A stretch of DNA of 34,097 bases from a virus: the IMG/VR virus record IMGVR_UViG_3300049491_000161, positions 1 to 34,097 of that record; one strand, written 5' to 3'. Under the pieces are notes generated by a model. The model saw only the letters and a program-made list of their open reading frames with translations, did not search any database and was not told the origin of the DNA. Positions 4,168 to 34,097 of the stretch are shown here, one piece after another (within the stretch, counting starts at the first letter, position 1; each line of letters opens with the position of its first letter). The position numbers and the translations under genes were made by a program.

Positions 4168-5100
4168 ATGCTTGATTTGATGCACATACCAAGCGCCACC
4201 AGGGGGCGGGTGTGGGTTTGCAATGGCAACAGCGCGGCAAGCGGGGTTGGCTGGACGGCGTGGCAACGCCAGCGCGGCGAAACGTTCGCGCACATGTTCT
4301 TGCTTGCCAACGGGGGGGGTGGCGGGACTGGCGTGATCGGCGCGAACTCGACAGCGGCCGGCGGTGGCGGCGGCGGATCGTCGGGGCAATCGCGCATTGA
4401 GATCCCTCTCTACGGGTTGCCAGATCAGTTGTGGGTCAGCGTGCCTTACCCCGCCGCGGCAGCTAGCAATGCCTACATTTCCATCGCACCAAACAACACG
4501 ACGAATCACCTAATCCTTCACGCATCCGGCGGTGGGCTTGGCGGCAACGCAGCGGGCGCAACGCCTGGCGCAGCCGGGGCTGCGGGCAGCCTGTCGAACA
4601 TTGCGACAGCCCCGCTCGGTGGCATGGGCAACCCCGTCTATTTGTCCGGGCAGGCTGGCCTGGTTGGATCTGCAAATAGCACTGGCGCTGCGCTAACCCT
4701 GCCTGTGACCGGCATTCTATGCACCGGCGGCACCGGTGGTGCTGGGTTAGGCGCCGCCGCGTCTTCCGGCTCAGCGGGCGGGTCTTTCATTGTGCCTGCT
4801 GCACCAAGCCCATTCCCGCCGCAAAACGGCGGCGCAGGTTCGGCGGTGGCCACAACGCCACCAGAACCCGGTAGAGAAGGCCTTGCCGGCTTCACGCAGG
4901 GCCTGCGCTACTTCTACGGAGGCACCGGTGGTGCCTCCACCCATGGCACTGCCACCGGCGGCGGTCTGGTGCAAGCCCGTGGCGGCAATGGTGTAGGACC
5001 CGGCTGCGGCGGTGGCGGCATGGGTGGGGCGCTCACCGGCAGCACGGCGGCGGCGGCCAGCCTGGGCGGGCCTGGCATTTGCATCATCATTTCTTGGTGA
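4168..5100 (+). CDS. Glycine-rich adhesin-like phage protein
   Basis: A 310-residue protein with a short N-terminal region and then a very glycine- and alanine-rich body: many GGxGG and GGGG runs separated by short hydrophobic stretches. It ends GGPGICIIISW. Polyglycine-rich domains of this style occur in receptor-binding tips of some tailed phages, where they form stacked polyglycine helices, so a host-binding role is a reasonable inference. An in-frame ATG at 4180 is an alternative start. A run of eight G (4312-4319) sits early in the gene and would change the frame if its length varied. It belongs to the accessory block between portal and scaffold genes. Confidence 0.75.
   Translation: MLDLMHIPSATRGRVWVCNGNSAASGVGWTAWQRQRGETFAHMFLLANGGGGGTGVIGANSTAAGGGGGGSSGQSRIEIPLYGLPDQLWVSVPYPAAAASNAYISIAPNNTTNHLILHASGGGLGGNAAGATPGAAGAAGSLSNIATAPLGGMGNPVYLSGQAGLVGSANSTGAALTLPVTGILCTGGTGGAGLGAAASSGSAGGSFIVPAAPSPFPPQNGGAGSAVATTPPEPGREGLAGFTQGLRYFYGGTGGASTHGTATGGGLVQARGGNGVGPGCGGGGMGGALTGSTAAAASLGGPGICIIISW
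4312..4319 (+). repeat. Homopolymer tract of eight G
   Basis: Eight consecutive G bases lie about 145 bases into the glycine-rich gene and encode part of a polyglycine stretch. Long G tracts in surface-protein genes can expand or shrink by slipped-strand mispairing, switching the frame. They are also a common place for sequencing errors. The reading frame is open as given. Confidence 0.6.
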
Positions 5101-5105
5101 GCTAG

Positions 5106-6266
5106 ATGCTTGGGTTTTCTCCACTATCCGCTGCGCCAATATCGGGAAACGCGTCGGAAGTTGGTCAGTATTCAATTGCTGCCGCGCAGGGCATTTACAC
5201 GCTTTCCGGCCAGGTCGCCGGGCTAGGCGCTGCGCGTCAGCTCACAGCAAGCCCTGGCACATACGCGCACGTTGGGCAGGCCGCGGGGCTGTTGCCGGCC
5301 AAGCGGTTGTCGGCCGCGCAGGGCGCATACGCCATCACGGGGTTTGCGGCAGCGCTTGTCGTCGGCCGCGCGGTAGTTGCGCAGCAAGGTGCCTACTCCC
5401 TGGCTGGGCAGTCTGCTGGTTTGCGTTACGCGAGGCTGCCACTTGGTGCGGCGCAGGGCGCCTACGCGCTCAGCGGCCAGGCGGCTACGTTCGGCATCAG
5501 CAAAACGCTTTCTGCCGGCGCCGGCACCTACTCCATTGCAGGGCAGGCGGCTCGTGTGGCTGTGGAACGCAGACTGCTAGCTGCACAGGCTGCCTATGCG
5601 CTCACCGGTGTTGGCGCTGCCCTGAGAAAAACAACCTCGCTTGCCGCCGGCCAGGGCCTGTATTCGATCTCTGGCCAAGGCGTGACGTTCCGCGCGGCGC
5701 GATCCATGCCGGCAGTAGCGGGTGTCTACGCGCTGGTCGGGCAGGGCTCGAGTCTGCTGATCGGGCGCGCGTTCCTGGGGTCTGTTGGGGCATACGCCGT
5801 CACTGGTCGAGCGGCGAACCTGCGGGCAAACCGCTCGTTGGTGGCCGGCATCGGCAGTTACACGCTCAACGGGCAGCCGGCACAGCTTGCACGGTTCGCC
5901 ATTCTCGCCGCCCAGCTCGGCGGCTACGCACTCACCGACACCGCGGCCACGCTGCGCAAGGCATCAGCGCTTCTCGCCGCTGCTGGCACGTACACCTACA
6001 ACGGCCAGGCCGCCACGCTCACCTACACCCCATTTAGCGGCGGGGCGACGGCGGCGCAGGTTTGGAACTACACGCTTTCAAATGGCATGACGGCCGGCGA
6101 AACCCTGGTCACGCTGCACCTCATGATTTCCGAGCTGCACGACATCCACGGGCTGAAGGTCGGCTCGCCGCTCACGGTCGATACCGTCAACGGCCTGCGC
6201 GCTGCGGCGGGAATTGTGCAGACCATGACCTCGATTGCCGGGGTCGATACGGTGACGCGGCAATGA
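5106..6266 (+). CDS. Tandem-repeat phage protein, thirteen 22-residue repeats
   Basis: A 386-residue protein with a short leader (residues 1-28), thirteen tandem repeats (about residues 29-309), and a C-terminal domain. Each repeat is 22 residues (one has 23) with the pattern G-x-Y-[AST]-[LIV]-x-G-Q-x-A-x-L, about five variable residues with a frequent Arg or Lys, then a small-residue stretch. The regular alternation suggests one or two beta strands per repeat, so a solenoid or beta-prism fibre is plausible. The C-terminal part carries TAAQVWNYTLSNG and then DIHGLKVGSPLTV, and the same domain is repeated as a separate small protein in the next gene. The start lies 5 bases after the previous stop. 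A virion fibre role is inferred; no enzyme motif is seen. Confidence 0.8.
   Translation: MLGFSPLSAAPISGNASEVGQYSIAAAQGIYTLSGQVAGLGAARQLTASPGTYAHVGQAAGLLPAKRLSAAQGAYAITGFAAALVVGRAVVAQQGAYSLAGQSAGLRYARLPLGAAQGAYALSGQAATFGISKTLSAGAGTYSIAGQAARVAVERRLLAAQAAYALTGVGAALRKTTSLAAGQGLYSISGQGVTFRAARSMPAVAGVYALVGQGSSLLIGRAFLGSVGAYAVTGRAANLRANRSLVAGIGSYTLNGQPAQLARFAILAAQLGGYALTDTAATLRKASALLAAAGTYTYNGQAATLTYTPFSGGATAAQVWNYTLSNGMTAGETLVTLHLMISELHDIHGLKVGSPLTVDTVNGLRAAAGIVQTMTSIAGVDTVTRQ
5190..6032 (+). repeat. Thirteen 66-bp coding repeats
   Basis: The DNA encoding the 22-residue units repeats with a 66-base period (one unit of 69). The repeats are diverged at DNA level and better conserved at Tyr, Gly-Gln and Leu positions, so this is an old protein-level array and not a recent tandem duplication or a CRISPR array. 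Confidence 0.8.
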
Positions 6267-7854: not shown

Positions 7855-7925
7855 GCCACTTCCACAGCACCTACGGCCCCCGATCAGGCGGGCTACGGCA
7901 CACAAACACCTGAAAGGGCCACATC

Positions 7926-8927
7926 ATGGCAACCGGCAAAGCATCCGACTTCAAGATCTACAACGACCAGTTCTTCGGCGGGCTGATCGAGCAGCTCGCG
8001 CAGAACCTGTCTCCGCTCGGCAGCGTTGGCATCCGCATGCGCGCGAAGATGATCAAGGGCGACTACGAACTCCAGTCGCTCATCAAGAAACTGAGCGGCA
8101 TCATCTCGCGCCGCGACACCACGTCCGTTGCCGCAGCAACCGACCTGGCCGTGACGATGGACGAAAGCATCAGCGTCAAGCTGAACCGCAAAATCGGCCC
8201 CGTCGCGCAGACCCTCGACGCGTGGAAGAAGGCCGCGCTGCCGTTCGAAGCCGATTGGGACGCATCCGGCATGAAGGGCTTCAGCCGCTACCTGGGCTCG
8301 ATGATCGCCGGCGACGTTCAGGCGGATATGCTGAACAACGCCCTCGTCGCTTGCCGCGTGTTCCTCGAAAACGCCAACAGCGGCAGCAACCTGCACACCA
8401 TCGCAGCCAACGGCACGATGACGACGGCGGCGCTGGTCACCGGCCTGTCGAAGATGGGCGACCAGGCGAACCGCGTCAAGGCGTGGGTGATGCATTCGAA
8501 GGTCTACTTCGACACGCTGAACTATCAGATCAACCCGGCGAACAACGGCTCGGATCAAGCGTTCCAAGCGATCCAACTTGCATCCCCGGCCACGCTGAAT
8601 CGCCCGGTGTACGTGACCGATTCGTCGTCGCTGTTGGTCGCCGGCACGCCGGACCTGTACCGCACGATCGGCCTCGTTGACGGCGGCATCGACCTGACCA
8701 ACAGCGAAGAGCAGACGGTGATCACCGACCTGGTGACCGGCTTGGAAAACATCGTCGCGCGGCTGCAAGGCGAATTCGCCTACAACCTCGGGATCATGGG
8801 CGCCAAGTGGGACATCACCAACGGCGGCGCGAACCCGTCGAGCGGCACTCTTTCCACAGCGACCAACTGGGACCAGTACTGCACCTCGATGAAGGACTCT
8901 GCGGGCGTGGTGATCGTCTCGGGCTGA
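7926..8927 (+). CDS. Major capsid protein
   Basis: A 333-residue protein of the size and position expected for the major head subunit. It starts KASDFKIYNDQFFGGLIEQL, a pattern I associate with the gp13-like major capsid family of HK97-type fold proteins. It also has GISRR-like basic loops, a central AWVMHSKVYFDTLNY segment, VYVTDSS, and a C-terminal LGIMGAKWDI-type strand region. The ribosome site (GAAAGGG) is strong and lies 8 bases before the ATG, consistent with high expression. The scaffold-like gene lies upstream and neck genes downstream. Confidence 0.86.
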   Translation: MATGKASDFKIYNDQFFGGLIEQLAQNLSPLGSVGIRMRAKMIKGDYELQSLIKKLSGIISRRDTTSVAAATDLAVTMDESISVKLNRKIGPVAQTLDAWKKAALPFEADWDASGMKGFSRYLGSMIAGDVQADMLNNALVACRVFLENANSGSNLHTIAANGTMTTAALVTGLSKMGDQANRVKAWVMHSKVYFDTLNYQINPANNGSDQAFQAIQLASPATLNRPVYVTDSSSLLVAGTPDLYRTIGLVDGGIDLTNSEEQTVITDLVTGLENIVARLQGEFAYNLGIMGAKWDITNGGANPSSGTLSTATNWDQYCTSMKDSAGVVIVSG

Positions 8928-9320: not shown

Positions 9321-9709
9321 TGCTCACGGACGCGCAGCGCACCGACGTGCGCCGGTACATGGGCCACCCGGTTCTCAATGCCGGCGAGCCGGACACGGTC
9401 TACGCCAAGGCCTACTCGCGCGCCACGTTTCCGGTGTCGCTGACCGTGCGTCTGGACAACCTCACAGCGACCGAACAGGACGTGCTGACCAATACATTCC
9501 TGTCCACGCTGGCGACCCTAGAAGCGGCGATCCCGACCGCTGGCGACAATCTCGACACCGAGATTGCAGGACCGTGGACGGCGCGCAAAGACGAAATCGC
9601 GCAGCGATCGTCGCTGTTCGACCGTTGGCGCCGCGAGATGTGCGGCTTCCTCGGCTTCGCGCCAGGGCCCGCACTGGGCGGCGGTGGCTTCACGCTGGTG
9701 CGGGCTTGA
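9320..9709 (+). CDS. Head-tail adaptor-like neck protein
   Basis: A 129-residue protein starting LTDAQRTDVRRYMGHPV, a pattern familiar from small phage proteins encoded after the capsid gene. It continues with a helical region around LTATEQDVLTNTFLSTLATLE and a conserved-looking WTARKDEIAQRSSLFDRWRREM segment. The all-helical content, the size and the place between capsid and tail completion genes fit a head completion or adaptor protein that extends the portal channel. It starts at the ATGA overlap with the previous gene. The specific family is not certain. Confidence 0.72.
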   Translation: MLTDAQRTDVRRYMGHPVLNAGEPDTVYAKAYSRATFPVSLTVRLDNLTATEQDVLTNTFLSTLATLEAAIPTAGDNLDTEIAGPWTARKDEIAQRSSLFDRWRREMCGFLGFAPGPALGGGGFTLVRA

Positions 9710-9747
9710 CGCACACACATGACAACCCCCATGAAAGGAAACGACAT

Positions 9748-9888
9748 ATGAGCAACGATCACGCACTCGCGCAGGCCACGGCCAAGCACGCGAAGAAAGA
9801 AACCGGCAAGGCGAAGGCGATCCCGCCTGCGAAGTCGGCGCCGGCGCCGGTAGCAAAGGCGCCGCCTGCGAAGTCGGCGAAGGACTGA
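9748..9888 (+). CDS. Small basic Ala/Lys/Pro-rich protein
   Basis: A 46-residue protein with an AAAGGAAA ribosome site just upstream. It consists mostly of Lys, Ala and Pro, with an APPAKSA-like unit appearing twice. It is too simple for family assignment. Its charge suggests nucleic-acid or virion association, but this is a guess. The good ribosome site and the lack of any competing frame support it as real. Confidence 0.5.
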   Translation: MSNDHALAQATAKHAKKETGKAKAIPPAKSAPAPVAKAPPAKSAKD

Positions 9889-9927
9889 AGGGACCGGTGC
9901 GCGCATGAGCCCGACTGATCTGCTGTC

Positions 9928-10554
9928 ATGAACGGCGTCCGTCTCCAAGAGCAGATCTACGCCGGCTTCATGCGCGCGGCGAAGCACGTCGGCCGGGCCT
10001 ATGAAGTCTTCCGCGCCGACACCGCGCTAGAACCTACCGATTCGGCCTACAGCATCGGCAGCCAGTTCTGCCTGTTCGCCGCCGAGAAGAAATTCGAGGT
10101 GCCGCAGAAGTTCAAAATCCCTGCCCGCTACCTCTACGCCGATGGGCGCGAGTTAGCGCCGCGCGACATCCTGATCGGCCCATACGGCACGTTCTACGTC
10201 GGCGACATGCAGCCGAACCTGCCGATGCAAGCGGTCTGGTGCAACGAGACGGTGTCGATCGACCGGCCTGGCTACATCGGCGCCGAGCAGACGACGAGCC
10301 CGATCGCATCGGGCCTGCCGTGCTTTCGGCAACTGAAGAAGGTCGACCAGAAGCCGACCAGCGCAATCGGCGGCTCGTCGACTGCCGCGGTCGCGTTCGG
10401 CGAGTTCTACCTGTTCACGCCGCTGCCGCTCGGCCTGGTCATTCAGGGCGACGTGATCACCTGCGCCAGCGACAACCGGCGCTTCTCGCTCGACACGATC
10501 GACAACACCGAAATCGGCGTCGTGCTCACGATGCGCCAGGCCGACGCGATCTGA
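9928..10554 (+). CDS. Phage neck/head-tail connector-region protein
   Basis: A 208-residue protein with an N-terminal helix (RLQEQIYAGFMRAAKHVG) and a beta-rich remainder including GPYGTFYVGDMQPNLPMQ and VWCNETVSIDRPG. Its ends pair with the next gene through a one-base TGATG overlap. Proteins with the YVGDMQP-type motif occur in hypothetical genes between capsid and tail completion genes of siphoviruses. It is most likely a virion neck component. No enzymatic motif is seen. Confidence 0.7.
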   Translation: MNGVRLQEQIYAGFMRAAKHVGRAYEVFRADTALEPTDSAYSIGSQFCLFAAEKKFEVPQKFKIPARYLYADGRELAPRDILIGPYGTFYVGDMQPNLPMQAVWCNETVSIDRPGYIGAEQTTSPIASGLPCFRQLKKVDQKPTSAIGGSSTAAVAFGEFYLFTPLPLGLVIQGDVITCASDNRRFSLDTIDNTEIGVVLTMRQADAI

Positions 10555-10982
10555 TGCTGTCGATCGATACACGCCTGAGCCTCGCAGCGCTGGAGGCGAT
10601 GCTGCTGCGCCTGGTCAATCCCGAGCCGGCGCTCGCGGTGATCGGGACCAAGCAGCGGGACGCCATCCGCCAGCGCATCGAGCGCGGCAAGCACGAGCCG
10701 GACGGCAACGCCTGGGCGCCGTGGAGCCAGAGCACGCGCGACTACCGCGAGGCGAAGGGCAACGTCGGCAAGGGCCTGCTATGGGATGACGGCACGCTGC
10801 TCGACAGCATCGTCTCCGTGCCCAGCGCGACGGAAGTCGTCATTGGCACGCCGGTGCACTACGCCGGCTTCTTGCAAGACGGCACGAGCCGCATGGACGC
10901 GCGGCCGTTCATGGGCTGGACCGACGACGACAAGCATCACGCCGAGATGACGATGCTGCACTTCATTGAGGGCGCGCTGTGA
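10554..10982 (+). CDS. Tail completion / virion morphogenesis protein (Mu gpG-like)
   Basis: A 142-residue protein that fits the phage virion morphogenesis family (Mu G-like, PF05069 type), which completes the tail end for joining to the head. Recognisable parts are GNAWAPWSQSTRDYR, the GLLWDDGTLLDSI turn, VVIGTPVHYAGFLQDGT, and the closing MDARPFMGWTDDD, with a final amphipathic helix. The start ATG overlaps the previous stop, and its stop overlaps the GTG of the next gene. This order (connector, morphogenesis protein, tail terminator, tube) is standard. Confidence 0.87.
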   Translation: MLSIDTRLSLAALEAMLLRLVNPEPALAVIGTKQRDAIRQRIERGKHEPDGNAWAPWSQSTRDYREAKGNVGKGLLWDDGTLLDSIVSVPSATEVVIGTPVHYAGFLQDGTSRMDARPFMGWTDDDKHHAEMTMLHFIEGAL

Positions 10983-11422
10983 TCGCTGGCCTGACGACCG
11001 ACTTGCTCACCAAGATCCGCACGATCCCCGATCTCTCGACGCGCACGGGCCTGACCATCGGCGGCAAGTCGCAAGACCCCGGAATGCTCAAGGTGCCGCT
11101 GCCAGCATCCTGGGTTTCATTCAAGTCCGACCAAGTCGACGAGCGCGATTTCACGCACGGCCCGGCGTCGGGCTACATCGTTGATGTTGGCGTCCTGATG
11201 GGCACATGGGCCGCGATGATCTTCGTCCCATACAACGACGACGCTGACATGCTGTCCGTGCAACTCCCGCTTCTCGAGGCCGTGGCCGGCGCGGTCCACG
11301 GCACCGAAGCACCTTCCGGTTTTCGCTGGCGCTACATCGGCCAGCGCATCGCGCTCGTCTACCCCGACCGGCTCGCGTACGAACTGAAGTTCACGGTGAA
11401 CTTCTGCACCACTCCAACTTGA
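10979..11422 (+). CDS. Tail terminator-like protein
   Basis: A 147-residue protein starting with GTG in a GTGA overlap. It has an alpha/beta layout with VGVLMGTWAAMIFVPYNDDADML, followed by a helix and a strand-rich end (RWRYIGQRIALVYPDRLAYELKFTV). Mu gp37-like and related terminator proteins have this size, this fold outline and this place between the tail completion and tube genes, where they cap the tail tube. The assignment is from position and general shape. Confidence 0.65.
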   Translation: MIAGLTTDLLTKIRTIPDLSTRTGLTIGGKSQDPGMLKVPLPASWVSFKSDQVDERDFTHGPASGYIVDVGVLMGTWAAMIFVPYNDDADMLSVQLPLLEAVAGAVHGTEAPSGFRWRYIGQRIALVYPDRLAYELKFTVNFCTTPT

Positions 11423-30995: not shown

Positions 30996-31997
30996 TCACC
31001 CGGCTCTCTGCAACGGCGGGCCGGCGTTATCGACGGCAGCGCCGAGGCCTTCCAGGGCATCCCGCTGCGGCGCCGTCATCACATGGCTGTAGCGCTCGGT
31101 CGTCTTGATGGACGTGTGCCCAAGGATCTCCCTGACAACGTGCATCGGCGCGTTGATCGGGGGCGCCAGCAGAATCGTCGCGCAACTGTGCCTCAAAGTG
31201 TGGAACCCCACGCTCGGCAGGCCAACCTTCACGCGCGCACGGCGGATGCCGGACTTCACCCCCTCGAAAGTGATCGACAACGGTAGGTGCTCGAGCCAAG
31301 GCCGCAGGGCCGGCACGATGGGAACCTCTCGGTAGCGTAGCGTCTTGGTGTTGCCAGCCAGGATTCGCAGTGTGTCGGTCCCGATGTCGGCTCGCTTGAT
31401 CTTGCAGATTTCTCCGCGCCGGCAGCCGGTCAGCAGACCGATCCAGATCGCCGCGCGCACCGGCTCGCTGGCGGCGTCGGCAAGCGAGCGCACCTGCTCG
31501 ATGCTAAGGTACAGCGTCTTCTGGTTGTTCTCGGGCAGGCGCTTGACGAGCCCGCTGTAGTCGGCCGGCACGCGCCCGCGCTCCCATGCCATGCGAAGCG
31601 CCTTCTTCAAGGCCCCAAGGCTGCGGTTGATCGTGGCGGGGGCATAGTGGCCGGTCAGGTCTTGCACGATCGCAGCGGCCACCTCTCGGGCCTCGCTTGC
31701 GCGCCTGCCTTCAAGCCAGCGCCCGATGCGGTAGCCGTGATACTGCGCCGTGTCGGTGCTTCGCAGGTGCAGCGCGTGGCGCTCGGTGTAGTCGGCCATC
31801 AGCTCGGCCAGCGGCGGGTCGCCAGGGATCGAGACGGCCTTCGCGGTCTTCTGCGTGTGCAGCGCCCGGACTAGTTCTGCTTCGACTCGCTTGGCATCGC
31901 TCGCACTTGCACCCGCCGGCAAGCGTCTGTGAAGGCGGCGGCGCTGGACGCAAGCTTCGGCGTGCCAGCGGCATTCTGGGTCTCTTCGGATCGGCAC
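30996..31997 (-). CDS. int: Tyrosine-type integrase
   Basis: A 333-residue site-specific recombinase that would insert and excise the phage. The catalytic residues are all present: Arg 193 (TGCRRGE), Lys 218 (GNTKTLRY), His 266 and Arg 269 (FHTLRH), His 294 (LGHTSIKTT) and nucleophile Tyr 303 (ERYSHV). The N-terminal part has the SAM-like core-binding domain (PPLAELMADYTERHALHL, INRSLGALKKALRMAWE). I chose GTG at 31997 because AGGGAG lies 5 bases upstream; the frame is open further to 32060 but that part reads as Arg-rich shadow. It overlaps the excisionase-like gene by 127 bases and ends beside the tRNA. Confidence 0.9.
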   Translation of the reverse strand: MPIRRDPECRWHAEACVQRRRLHRRLPAGASASDAKRVEAELVRALHTQKTAKAVSIPGDPPLAELMADYTERHALHLRSTDTAQYHGYRIGRWLEGRRASEAREVAAAIVQDLTGHYAPATINRSLGALKKALRMAWERGRVPADYSGLVKRLPENNQKTLYLSIEQVRSLADAASEPVRAAIWIGLLTGCRRGEICKIKRADIGTDTLRILAGNTKTLRYREVPIVPALRPWLEHLPLSITFEGVKSGIRRARVKVGLPSVGFHTLRHSCATILLAPPINAPMHVVREILGHTSIKTTERYSHVMTAPQRDALEGLGAAVDNAGPPLQRAG

Positions 31998-32146
31998 GCG
32001 CGCTCCCTGTTCCAAGCCTGAACGGCGGCTAGATCGTACCGCCGGCGCTTGCCGGCCCACTCACAGGGGCAACCCTCGGTGTCCCATCGCGCGACTGTGC
32101 GCGTGCTGACGCGGAAGTGGGCGGCGAGATCGGCTGGCGTCAACAT
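31871..32146 (-). CDS. Excisionase-like HTH protein
   Basis: A 91-residue protein with an N-terminal winged-helix DNA-binding pattern: MLTPADLAAHFRVSTRTVAR, then WAGKRRRYDLAAVQAW. This is the MerR/excisionase-like layout, with a helix-turn-helix followed by a basic wing. A GAGGAA ribosome site lies 9 bases before the ATG. It is the gene directly upstream of the integrase and overlaps its first 127 bases, so an excisionase or recombination directionality factor is the likely role. A small regulator is the alternative. The C-terminal 35 residues are low complexity. Confidence 0.75.
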   Translation of the reverse strand: MLTPADLAAHFRVSTRTVARWDTEGCPCEWAGKRRRYDLAAVQAWNRERACRSEETQNAAGTPKLASSAAAFTDACRRVQVRAMPSESKQN

Positions 32147-32457
32147 CAGTGGAAGTTCCTCGCCGCCAGCATGCGCGGGACGCTCGCCGCGATGAGCCTG
32201 AGAAGTTCCTTCAGGGCCGCACAGTGGACAACCTCGCCGGTCTGCACGTCTGTCGCGAGCCAGGAGACGAAGCCGATGCGAGGCTCGATCCACAAGTCGC
32301 GGTAGCCGATGTGCGCGAGCGGCATCAGGAATGGCCGCCGGATGTCGTCGTCGAGCGGTAGGTCCGGGATGCCCGCATCGCGCTCGGCCTGCGCCTTGTC
32401 CATGCTCCAGCGAGCGTGGGCTGCGCGAACGTGGCGTTGGGATTTGCGGCGTTGCAT
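32146..32457 (-). CDS. Hypothetical early protein
   Basis: A 103-residue protein with a basic N-terminus (QRRKSQRHVRAAHARWSMDK) and then a small domain with DLWIEPRIGFVSWLATDV and GEVVHCAALKELLRLI. The stop and the next start overlap (TGATG). No family recognised. It belongs to the reverse-strand integrase operon. Confidence 0.65.
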   Translation of the reverse strand: MQRRKSQRHVRAAHARWSMDKAQAERDAGIPDLPLDDDIRRPFLMPLAHIGYRDLWIEPRIGFVSWLATDVQTGEVVHCAALKELLRLIAASVPRMLAARNFH

Positions 32458-32481: not shown

Positions 32482-32706
32482 CTAAATCACGTTAGGGCGC
32501 TTCAGCACCTCGTACAGTGGCACTGCCCGCAGCCCCATGGCTTCCAGCGTTTCAACACTCGGGGCAACTTTGTGGCCGTTCATCAGGCGGCTGATGAAGC
32601 TCTTGTCCACGCCGGTCGCGCGCTCGGCGGCCCGGACGCCTCCGTGGCGATTAACCACGGCCTGCACTGCGGCCTCCAGCGTCACCAGCTTGCGGCGCAA
32701 AGTCAT
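32482..32706 (-). CDS. Cro/CI-type HTH regulator
   Basis: A 74-residue protein with a helix-turn-helix: VVNRHGGVRAAERATGVDKS, then FISRLMNGHKVAPSVETLEA. This is the standard Cro/CI-like order with the recognition helix at SFISRLMNG. The start at 32706 lies in an ATGA overlap with the previous gene; a longer frame to 32802 is an overlap shadow. It may control the lysogeny module or the early operon. Confidence 0.75.
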   Translation of the reverse strand: MTLRRKLVTLEAAVQAVVNRHGGVRAAERATGVDKSFISRLMNGHKVAPSVETLEAMGLRAVPLYEVLKRPNVI

Positions 32707-33029
32707 GGCTCGCGCATGAGAAGCCGAAGCTTCATGCTGTCCAGCATCAAAGCGTCTTCCTGGTTTGCGTAGTTTTGTCGGTGCAGTTGGCTGTATGCCC
32801 ACCCCACCATTTCGTCCAGTTCATCAACAAGCGAGCCAACATGGCCAGCGGCGGCCTCAAAAGCAAATGCCCGCACGCGCAGCAAGTTCATGTCGTGCTC
32901 AGTGTAGAGATATTGCACCCCGTCGCCGAGCTTCTCGCGCAACGTCGCATCAGCGCTGCCAGGCAAGCGGTGTAGGTCAATGCTTCGAGCGCTGACACTG
33001 ATCTGCGCTACAGGCAATTCCTCGCTCAT
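32703..33029 (-). CDS. Hypothetical early protein
   Basis: A 108-residue acidic protein with a strong AAGGAGG ribosome site. Middle and C-terminal helices (YLYTEHDMNLLRVRAFAFEA, LVDELDEMVGWAYSQLHRQ) suggest a small helical protein. No membrane segment or catalytic motif. It lies between the methyltransferase cassette and the HTH gene, and is co-directional with both. Confidence 0.65.
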   Translation of the reverse strand: MSEELPVAQISVSARSIDLHRLPGSADATLREKLGDGVQYLYTEHDMNLLRVRAFAFEAAAGHVGSLVDELDEMVGWAYSQLHRQNYANQEDALMLDSMKLRLLMREP

Positions 33030-33094
33030 GCCGCCTCCTTCGCAAACGCTTCGTCATACACATTGGTCGCCGCGTCGTTAGAGCGCAGCCTCAT
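33026..33094 (-). CDS. Possible 22-residue ORF across the cassette boundary
   Basis: An ATG-started frame (RLRSNDAATNVYDEAFAKEAA) that begins in an ATGA overlap with the methyltransferase stop and ends in an ATGA overlap with the next start. The composition is protein-like. The left boundary of the proposed cassette (33077/33078) falls inside it, so it may be the remnant tail of an older ORF given a new start by the insertion. Confidence 0.3.
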   Translation of the reverse strand: MRLRSNDAATNVYDEAFAKEAA

Positions 33095-33961
33095 GCCAGC
33101 GCCAATACTTCCTGCGCGATCCGCTGCTCAGCTATCGCGCAGTATTCTGGGTTCACTTCCAGCCCGATGAACTGGCGCCCCAGCGCCTTCGCTGCCTTCG
33201 CTGTCGTGCCACTGCCCATGAAAGGGTCGAGCACCACGTCGCCTGGTTGGCTCCACGTCGCCACATGGTCACGGGCCAAATTCTCCGGGTACGAAGCTGG
33301 ATGTCCGAGCCCGGCCGCTGCGGTTGGGTAGCGCCATACATTGCTGCAAATCTTGGTTTGTCCCGTGGTCTGCGTCGTTCGTCGCGCAACCGGGTCTAGT
33401 CTCTTGCTGCCGCTTGGGTCGCGTTGGCTCGTCAAAGAACTGCGCATGCCAGCCGTGATACTGTCTTCCAGTATGTAGTTGCAAGTCGCTGGCTTGCCCT
33501 TTGCAAAGACGAACATGAATTCTGTTGCTGGCGTGTATCTGTGGCAGTCTGGGTCTTGCGGCGTCGGGTTCTGTTTCTCCCACAACATCGTGTCATGCAG
33601 CCGAAGGCCAATGCGACGGAAATGCAGCGCCTGTTCAAAGCTGCTTCCTGTCTCGCTCCCGTCAACCGTCGCATCATTTACCACCCACACGATCACGCCG
33701 CCAGGTTTCAAAACCCGCTTCAGGTGCCACGCCACGCCAAAGAAGTCCCAACTATGCCCGCCGTAGGTGCGCAAGTTGTCATAGGGTGGGCTCGTCACCA
33801 CCAAGTCAACGCACTCGCGCGGCATCTGGCCCAGCAATTCGCAGTTGTCGCCGCAGTGAATCCGGTTCAGTTCAAGCATCGTCTACTTTCTCCACCATGC
33901 GCTCTAACCAGCGGTTCGAGACGGACAAGCCCGGGTACGGTCTTGCCGCTCAACCGCAACG
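33078..33961 (+). mobile_element. Integron-type gene cassette carrying a DNA methyltransferase
   Basis: An 884-base unit bounded by G|TTAGAGC on the left (33077/33078) and G|TTAGGC on the right (33961/33962), the cut context used by integron integrases. GCGCTCTAAC just upstream of the right-end palindrome (33899-33908) is the exact reverse complement of GTTAGAGCGC at the left end (33077-33086). This is expected if both were joined in the circular cassette form. The unit holds one gene and an attC-like site, with almost no other sequence. The gene runs opposite to the attC direction, which is less common, but in the same direction as the phage operon. Confidence 0.65.
33091..33879 (-). CDS. 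DNA methyltransferase (beta class, N4/N6 type)
   Basis: A 262-residue adenine-N6 or cytosine-N4 methyltransferase. The catalytic motif TSPPY (residues 29-33) comes near the N-terminus. The S-adenosylmethionine-binding motif DPFMGSGTT (about 218-226) comes near the C-terminus, which is the beta-class order. A GGDVV-like VVLDPF lead and LGRQFIGLEVNPEY follow the standard fold. The central part (about residues 90-190) is the target-recognition region. SPPY is more often seen in N4-cytosine enzymes, but base and target cannot be told from sequence. A GGAGA ribosome site lies upstream. No partner restriction gene is adjacent. It would protect phage DNA or alter host regulation. Confidence 0.9.
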   Translation of the reverse strand: MLELNRIHCGDNCELLGQMPRECVDLVVTSPPYDNLRTYGGHSWDFFGVAWHLKRVLKPGGVIVWVVNDATVDGSETGSSFEQALHFRRIGLRLHDTMLWEKQNPTPQDPDCHRYTPATEFMFVFAKGKPATCNYILEDSITAGMRSSLTSQRDPSGSKRLDPVARRTTQTTGQTKICSNVWRYPTAAAGLGHPASYPENLARDHVATWSQPGDVVLDPFMGSGTTAKAAKALGRQFIGLEVNPEYCAIAEQRIAQEVLALA

Positions 33962-33967
33962 TTAGGC
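33899..33967 (+). other. attC-like recombination site
   Basis: An imperfect palindrome with integron attC anatomy. Outer arms TAAC (33905-33908) and GTTA (33961-33964) are followed by unpaired spacers (2 and 3 bases). A long stem then forms: GCGGTT with AACCGC, GAG with CTC, CGG with CCG, CAAG with CTTG. Three extra bases (C 33917, A 33921, A 33925) are all on the same arm, which in attC sites are the extrahelical bases that set recombination polarity. The right core GTTAGGC matches the GTTRRRY consensus. No other attC copy is visible in the window. Confidence 0.7.
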
Positions 33968-34097
33968 GCTCGCAAAGTCCTTCATCACCACCTCAGCAGC
34001 GCCTTCGGGCAGCAGTTCGACGCAAGTCGAATACTTGGCGTCCATCCACGGCTGGTTCGTGTCAGCAACCTTGCCGCCCATGAACTCGCCTCGGTTC
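33962..34097 (-). CDS. Partial gene at the right edge, C-terminal 44 residues
   Basis: An open frame from the right edge to a TAA at 33962-33964, with a protein-like sequence (EFMGGKVADTNQPWMDAKY, then CVELLPEGAAEVVMKDF). The start lies outside the window. Its stop codon is formed by the TTA at the right boundary of the proposed cassette, so the insertion lies exactly at the end of this gene. No family is recognised. It is co-directional with the integrase operon. Confidence 0.6.
   Translation of the reverse strand, partial: NRGEFMGGKVADTNQPWMDAKYSTCVELLPEGAAEVVMKDFASA

Follow-up and report, generated by a model that had tools for sequence, protein, structure and literature searches.

By computational analysis we identified a single-gene cassette of the integron type, carrying a DNA methyltransferase gene and its own attC site, in a phage genome. 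The DNA analysed here (the window) is an entire virus record, 34,097 bases long, which the source lists as linear and a possible fragment, and its genes include portal, tape-measure, endolysin and integrase genes. On the evidence below, the cassette very probably belongs to a pool circulating among temperate phages and served by a phage-borne integron in relatives of the window. Beyond this individual case, we consider it probable that temperate phages own an integron system, with a phage lineage of the integron integrase (IntI), an attI site, a pool of inverted single-gene cassettes, and arrays that are replaced between close relatives. Integrons are known as the means by which bacteria stock and shuffle genes, and reports of integron pieces in phages described scattered cases. 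If the proposal is true, viruses would own a gene-shuffling device of this kind, in the form of a phage lineage equipped with integrase, attI and cassette pool and with a polarity suited to phage transcription.

A genuine attC site and the boundaries of the cassette

The features of the window on which the analysis rests are as follows.

30996..32060, minus strand: phage integrase, not IntI (PF00589, 1.7e-18; 81% to G017)
31871..32293, minus strand: excisionase-like gene (phrog_66 excisionase, 4.3e-8; 77% in L093, 45% in L109)
32482..32802, minus strand: helix-turn-helix gene of the early operon (weak HTH_3 match, below cut-off)
32703..33029, minus strand: hypothetical gene downstream of the cassette (no relatives found)
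33077..33086, plus strand: left cassette end, G|TTAGAGCGC (exact 10-base inverted repeat, complementary to the cassette's own R'')
33078..33961, plus strand (the attC top strand): integron-type cassette of 884 bp between two G|TT crossover points (repeat, R' box, covariance model)
33091..33879, minus strand: N6/N4 DNA methyltransferase of 262 aa, the cassette gene (PF01555, N6_N4_Mtase, 8.5e-43; phrog_67, 7.6e-63)
33899..33967, minus strand (the bottom, recombining strand): attC (covariance model and fold)
33962..34096, minus strand: 3' end of an upstream gene, truncated by the contig end (translation)

The exact inverted repeat that a preliminary description had seen framing the methyltransferase gene is present, as GTTAGAGCGC at 33077-33086 and GCGCTCTAAC at 33899-33908, and has no further copies in the 34 kb. 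The right copy is the R'' box of the attC site, with its R' box, GTTAGGC, at 33961-33967. The G|TT contexts that had been proposed as cut sites at both ends do mark the cassette ends, placing the crossover points at 33077|33078 and 33961|33962. A single gene lies between them, and the cassette end is complementary to its own R'' at 10 of 10 bases, again as had been described. The site has the paired L arms expected between such boxes and carries extrahelical bases on the L'' arm. All three, reported earlier as lying on one arm of the palindrome, were located on the left arm (C 33917, A 33921 and A 33925); on the folded bottom strand they read T, T and G from 5' to 3'. Folding of that strand, which the preliminary description had proposed as a check, gave a z of -5.8 for the palindrome as single-stranded DNA, with the usual protruding bases (-4.9 for the plus strand). 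Among 200 dinucleotide shuffles there was none whose fold matched that of the palindrome.

A covariance model trained on 30 attC sites, exclusively bacterial and drawn from 20 regions beside bacterial integron integrases, returned a sole match at E <= 10 over the window, at 33902-33967 on the minus strand (47.7 bits, E 2e-9), which bears out the earlier identification of the palindrome as an attC. Thirteen of 15 phage records with the same portal gene as the window gave no match to this model, which thus does not fire on phage DNA generally. Our attC scanner accepts at least 5 of 7 paired R bases under stricter bulge rules; a demand for 6 of 7 misses the window site. An exact attC half-site pattern gave zero matches in viral contigs because attC sequence varies. 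The attC of the window is genuine, and its reading as a chance hairpin was abandoned in view of the covariance model together with the negative controls. We therefore treat the element as a true integron gene cassette, and recombination by IntI at its G|TT points is predicted from the sequence.

Gene context of the cassette

The cassette lies upstream of the excisionase and integrase genes, which is roughly the position of the array and intI in IntI-bearing phages; in two of these, G017 and L109, the integron integrase is directly upstream of the counterpart of the excisionase-like gene. The window itself carries no integron integrase, in agreement with the preliminary description: its only candidate, the phage integrase, scores 37.9 bits against the integron-integrase model TIGR02249, for which the cut-off is 265. 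An attI was looked for at 33077 and not found. Since intI and attI are absent from this incomplete contig, the window is said to hold a cassette, not a complete integron.

The same account had called the cassette solitary, a word that the sequence does not support. About 130 bp of contig remain beyond the attC, and the TAA stop of the upstream gene (33964-33962) falls inside the R' box (GCC TAA C), so that the array may continue beyond 34097; the upstream gene may itself be a cassette gene. Other contigs end in or near a cassette array as the window does (window, 34097; G392, 45560; G393, 33672; L017), which suggests that arrays break assemblies and are under-counted.

An allele lacking the cassette would read, on the minus strand, ...GCGAGCGCCTAA joined directly to CGACGCGGCGACC. 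Among viral contigs the gene at 32703-33029 had no relatives, no relative of the integrase had genes in common with the window between integrase and cassette, and peptides flanking the insertion gave zero matches, leaving no relative with the window's genes on either side. The first 25 kb of the window likewise had no near relative among 50,697 cultured-phage records.

The methyltransferase and its relatives

Relatives of the methyltransferase were found in 17 viral contigs, most at 58-65% identity, and attC sites flank nearly all of them, often in arrays of up to 12 sites. Cultured phages carry relatives at up to 49%. No close relative was present in 84,980 bacterial and archaeal species genomes, where the best match had 35% identity. 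Judged from the family alone, the enzyme is likely used to methylate phage DNA against host restriction.

Nucleotide homology between the window cassette and those of three contigs (L037, L040 and L033) extends from the R'' core to just past the far crossover. Methyltransferase cassettes with 85% identity have different attC stems, a result that simple cassette transfer does not predict and that counts against the reading as a phage cassette pool. In another contig, L034 (G015), an array of about 12 attC sites contains a full methyltransferase of the window type preceded by a gene that shares only about its first 27 residues (the pair at 9693-10433 and 10529-11302); from its sequence, the latter appears to be a hybrid or a degraded copy.

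Cassette genes in the related phages are mostly inverted relative to attC

The unpaired bases of an attC lie on the L'' arm and distinguish its top from its bottom strand. As a check of the scanner, all attC hits from the bacterial regions had their bottom strand on the same strand as intI, as expected. The extrahelical bases of the window site make the plus strand its top strand, so the methyltransferase gene, on the minus strand, is inverted relative to its own attC. A stop codon next to R'' is the typical, though not universal, orientation of a cassette gene; here the start of the gene is next to R'', with the attC 5' of the gene.

This polarity recurs across the arrays of the related phages. 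Between consecutive attC sites, with gene direction judged from codon composition, the best coding frame was on the attC bottom strand in 22 of 26 phage intervals as against 6 of 38 bacterial ones (Fisher p 6.6e-8). Calling the longest open reading frame in the phage arrays gave 17 to 9, noisier than the 22 to 4 obtained from codon composition, and with covariance-model sites the phage count, also noisier, was 69 inverted to 23. In related arrays, 26 of 69 genes have their stop inside R', and about 45 of the 69 have it inside or within a few bases. The published phage TJE1 showed normal polarity by the same test.

Because they are inverted relative to attC, the cassette genes of these phages read along the phage early operon, and the earlier observation that the methyltransferase gene is oriented along the operon is upheld. 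The inversion has a further consequence: an inverted gene would be antisense to the usual bacterial integron promoter, which weakens the route for moving genes between integrons and phages that had been proposed. The polarity difference predicts a testable barrier between the phage and bacterial cassette pools.

Phage-borne integron integrases and their attI sites

IntI proteins were found in 22 viral contigs, one of them G017, whose IntI scores 423 bits against the cut-off of 265 and can be aligned full-length, through residues 51-359, with the structure of a Vibrio IntI (2a3v; E 6.7e-77). Their identity ranges from 54 to 100%, and from 68 to 95% in the phage-integron set, defined as G017, L095, L101, L102, L104 and L108, with an IntI that has the integron-specific region. 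In a phylogenetic tree the phage proteins form one group, joined only by one protein from a bacterial genome (support 100/99). As a single protein served as the seed for the set and bacteria were sampled to a limited extent, 'one clade' is provisional. The contigs are metagenomic. The bacterial-genome member (L125, G355:C17, 7702-9334, minus strand) lies in a prophage-like region with two attC sites and an inverted cassette gene, beside phage integrase and exonuclease-like genes. An IntI-like protein (46%) in Virus Rctr41k (L124, KX853513), a phage from a DAMO enrichment (4680-5678 and 7921-8813), was considered as a member of the phage clade and rejected, as it takes a different position in the tree and has two weak attC-like hits only.

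Directly upstream of intI, in the direction of the gene, lies an attI block consisting of TAA|CNTSAATTCGACCGC, a short variable stretch and then GTAACACC. Its other strand presents two GTT boxes, which we take to be the layout of known attI sites such as attI1. Thirteen contigs share the block: their sequences are unrelated as far as the crossover base and agree from there on. The motif was found in 18 viral contigs. In the phage integrons attI adjoins both intI and the attC array; three contigs (L099, L108 and G017) have a weaker model match or fewer sites. The intI gene sits at the integrase-proximal end of the array in IntI phages, and is missing beside the arrays of G004 and G393 as it is in the window.

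Families of phage tail and phage integrase genes occur beside IntI in L101, L102, L104, L108 and L109, and on this ground a reading of the IntI contigs as mislabelled bacterial integrons was rejected. A short contig with 12 attC in 4.5 kb (L009) may be mislabelled in this way.

Replaced arrays and shared cassettes among related phages

Two phage integrons, L104 and L095, are 94-97% identical on either side of their arrays, while the arrays are wholly different save for short attC-like pieces; the region of difference is bounded by the first R' box and by attI. Single cassettes are also shared. L037 and L102 have one in common (an attC and a second methyltransferase) that is 87% identical from crossover to crossover between different flanks, and L029 and L101 share another at 90%, which adjoins attI in L101. 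Since L037 holds both a relative of the window cassette and the cassette shared with L102, the window cassette is tied to the IntI phages. Taken together, these sequence comparisons favour recombination of cassettes with inverted genes at the crossover that is usual for integrons.

The highest score among viral sites, 72.3 bits, belongs to an attC at 5257-5316 of L036 (G010). We presume that it closely resembles the aadA-type attC found in class 1 integrons; a recent link with bacterial cassettes is possible.

Cargo of the arrays

Recognisable families of cassette genes are DNA methyltransferases, RNA ligases, a SpoU methylase, an ASCH protein and a Lar restriction-alleviation protein. The Lar-like gene (L030:8700-8942, minus strand; 2.9e-8) is over the cut-off; an Acb2/Tad1-like gene (L034:8162-8524, plus strand) is a weak match below it. 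With methyltransferases, a Lar homologue and RNA ligases among the cargo, the system may supply counter-defence genes.

A probable cassette pool of temperate phages and alternative readings

The reading of the window cassette as a member of a phage pool draws on the attC, the IntI genes, attI, the replacements bounded at crossovers and the inverted polarity, each recognised at the level of sequence. A phage integron would comprise a phage-clade IntI, an attI immediately before the intI gene and a cassette array that ends at this attI. IntI would bind the folded bottom strand of attC and join it, at G|TT, to attI or to another attC. A cassette could thereby enter the early operon of a phage with its gene along the operon, to be read by early transcription without an integron promoter. 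Several arrays, that of the window included, stand beside a phage integrase without intI in the available sequence; they have probably lost their IntI or are served by one acting in trans.

The preliminary description had proposed instead that a free cassette was inserted at a secondary GTT site in the early operon; on this reading it would have left a bacterial integron and entered the phage in a single event, through a bacterial IntI. The window has a single attC, without attI or intI, as that would leave, and insertion of cassettes outside integrons, at attG sites, is known (Loot et al. 2024, as cited in PMC11389934). Against this origin, the gene lacks a close relative in the bacterial and archaeal genomes, the methyltransferase family is phage-borne with its relatives in phage arrays, the inverted polarity is common to the phage pool, and related phages have an IntI and attI of their own; we judge it unlikely. 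We find it very unlikely that the window shows just the last cassette of a complete phage integron whose array and intI lie past the contig end. The nearness of that end to the attC, the upstream stop in R' and the other contigs that end in or near arrays would fit, but the integrase-proximal end, where IntI phages keep intI, is sequenced here and has none, and G004 and G393 share the arrangement without intI.

Finally, the palindrome could be a transcription terminator or another fixed hairpin of the operon and not a recombination site, given its strong fold on both strands; attC hairpins are themselves thought to be weak terminators, as cited in PMC9892861. We regard this as scarcely credible in view of the E value of the covariance-model match, the attC order of the bulges, the complement of R'' at the far cassette end, the breaks in homology at the crossover points, and the portal-sharing phages in which the model found nothing. 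Membership in a phage cassette pool accordingly remains our preferred account.

Relation to known systems

Part of this picture is already known. Qi et al. 2023 (PMC9892861) reported clusters of attC sites without an integrase (CALINs) and methyltransferase cassettes in phages (TJE1, P12002L, PH101 and MW202573), and 5 of the 6 phage attC sites that they tested recombined with attI1. The window resembles the phage CALINs in having an attC in a phage genome, methyltransferase cargo and no intI beside the cassette. It differs in that the reported clusters had at least two attC sites and in polarity, which is normal in the CALIN phage TJE1 and inverted in the window and its relatives. The phage IntI clade is not described in PMC9892861, and we found no account of an inverted, IntI-bearing phage lineage in the literature searched, which took in a minority of subscription papers and no bioRxiv preprints.

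Complete integrons in temperate phages, namely Vibrio anguillarum phages, P1 with a class 1 integron and Shewanella M16-3, are described in PMC9892861 as pieces of bacterial integrons. They too place intI, attI and cassettes in a phage genome, with an IntI that is 42-54% identical to the phage IntI found here.

The sedentary chromosomal integrons of Gammaproteobacteria share with the phage systems the structure of attC and the geometry of intI, attI and attC, and the model trained on them finds the phage sites. Their cassette genes, however, point away from intI (32 of 38 intervals), whereas those of the phages point toward it. In integrons with a reversed intI, the intI gene itself is flipped, and intI and cassette genes are read the same way. 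The phage integrons resemble these in that intI and cassette genes are co-directional, but in the phages the geometry of intI, attI and attC is normal and it is the cassette genes that are flipped.
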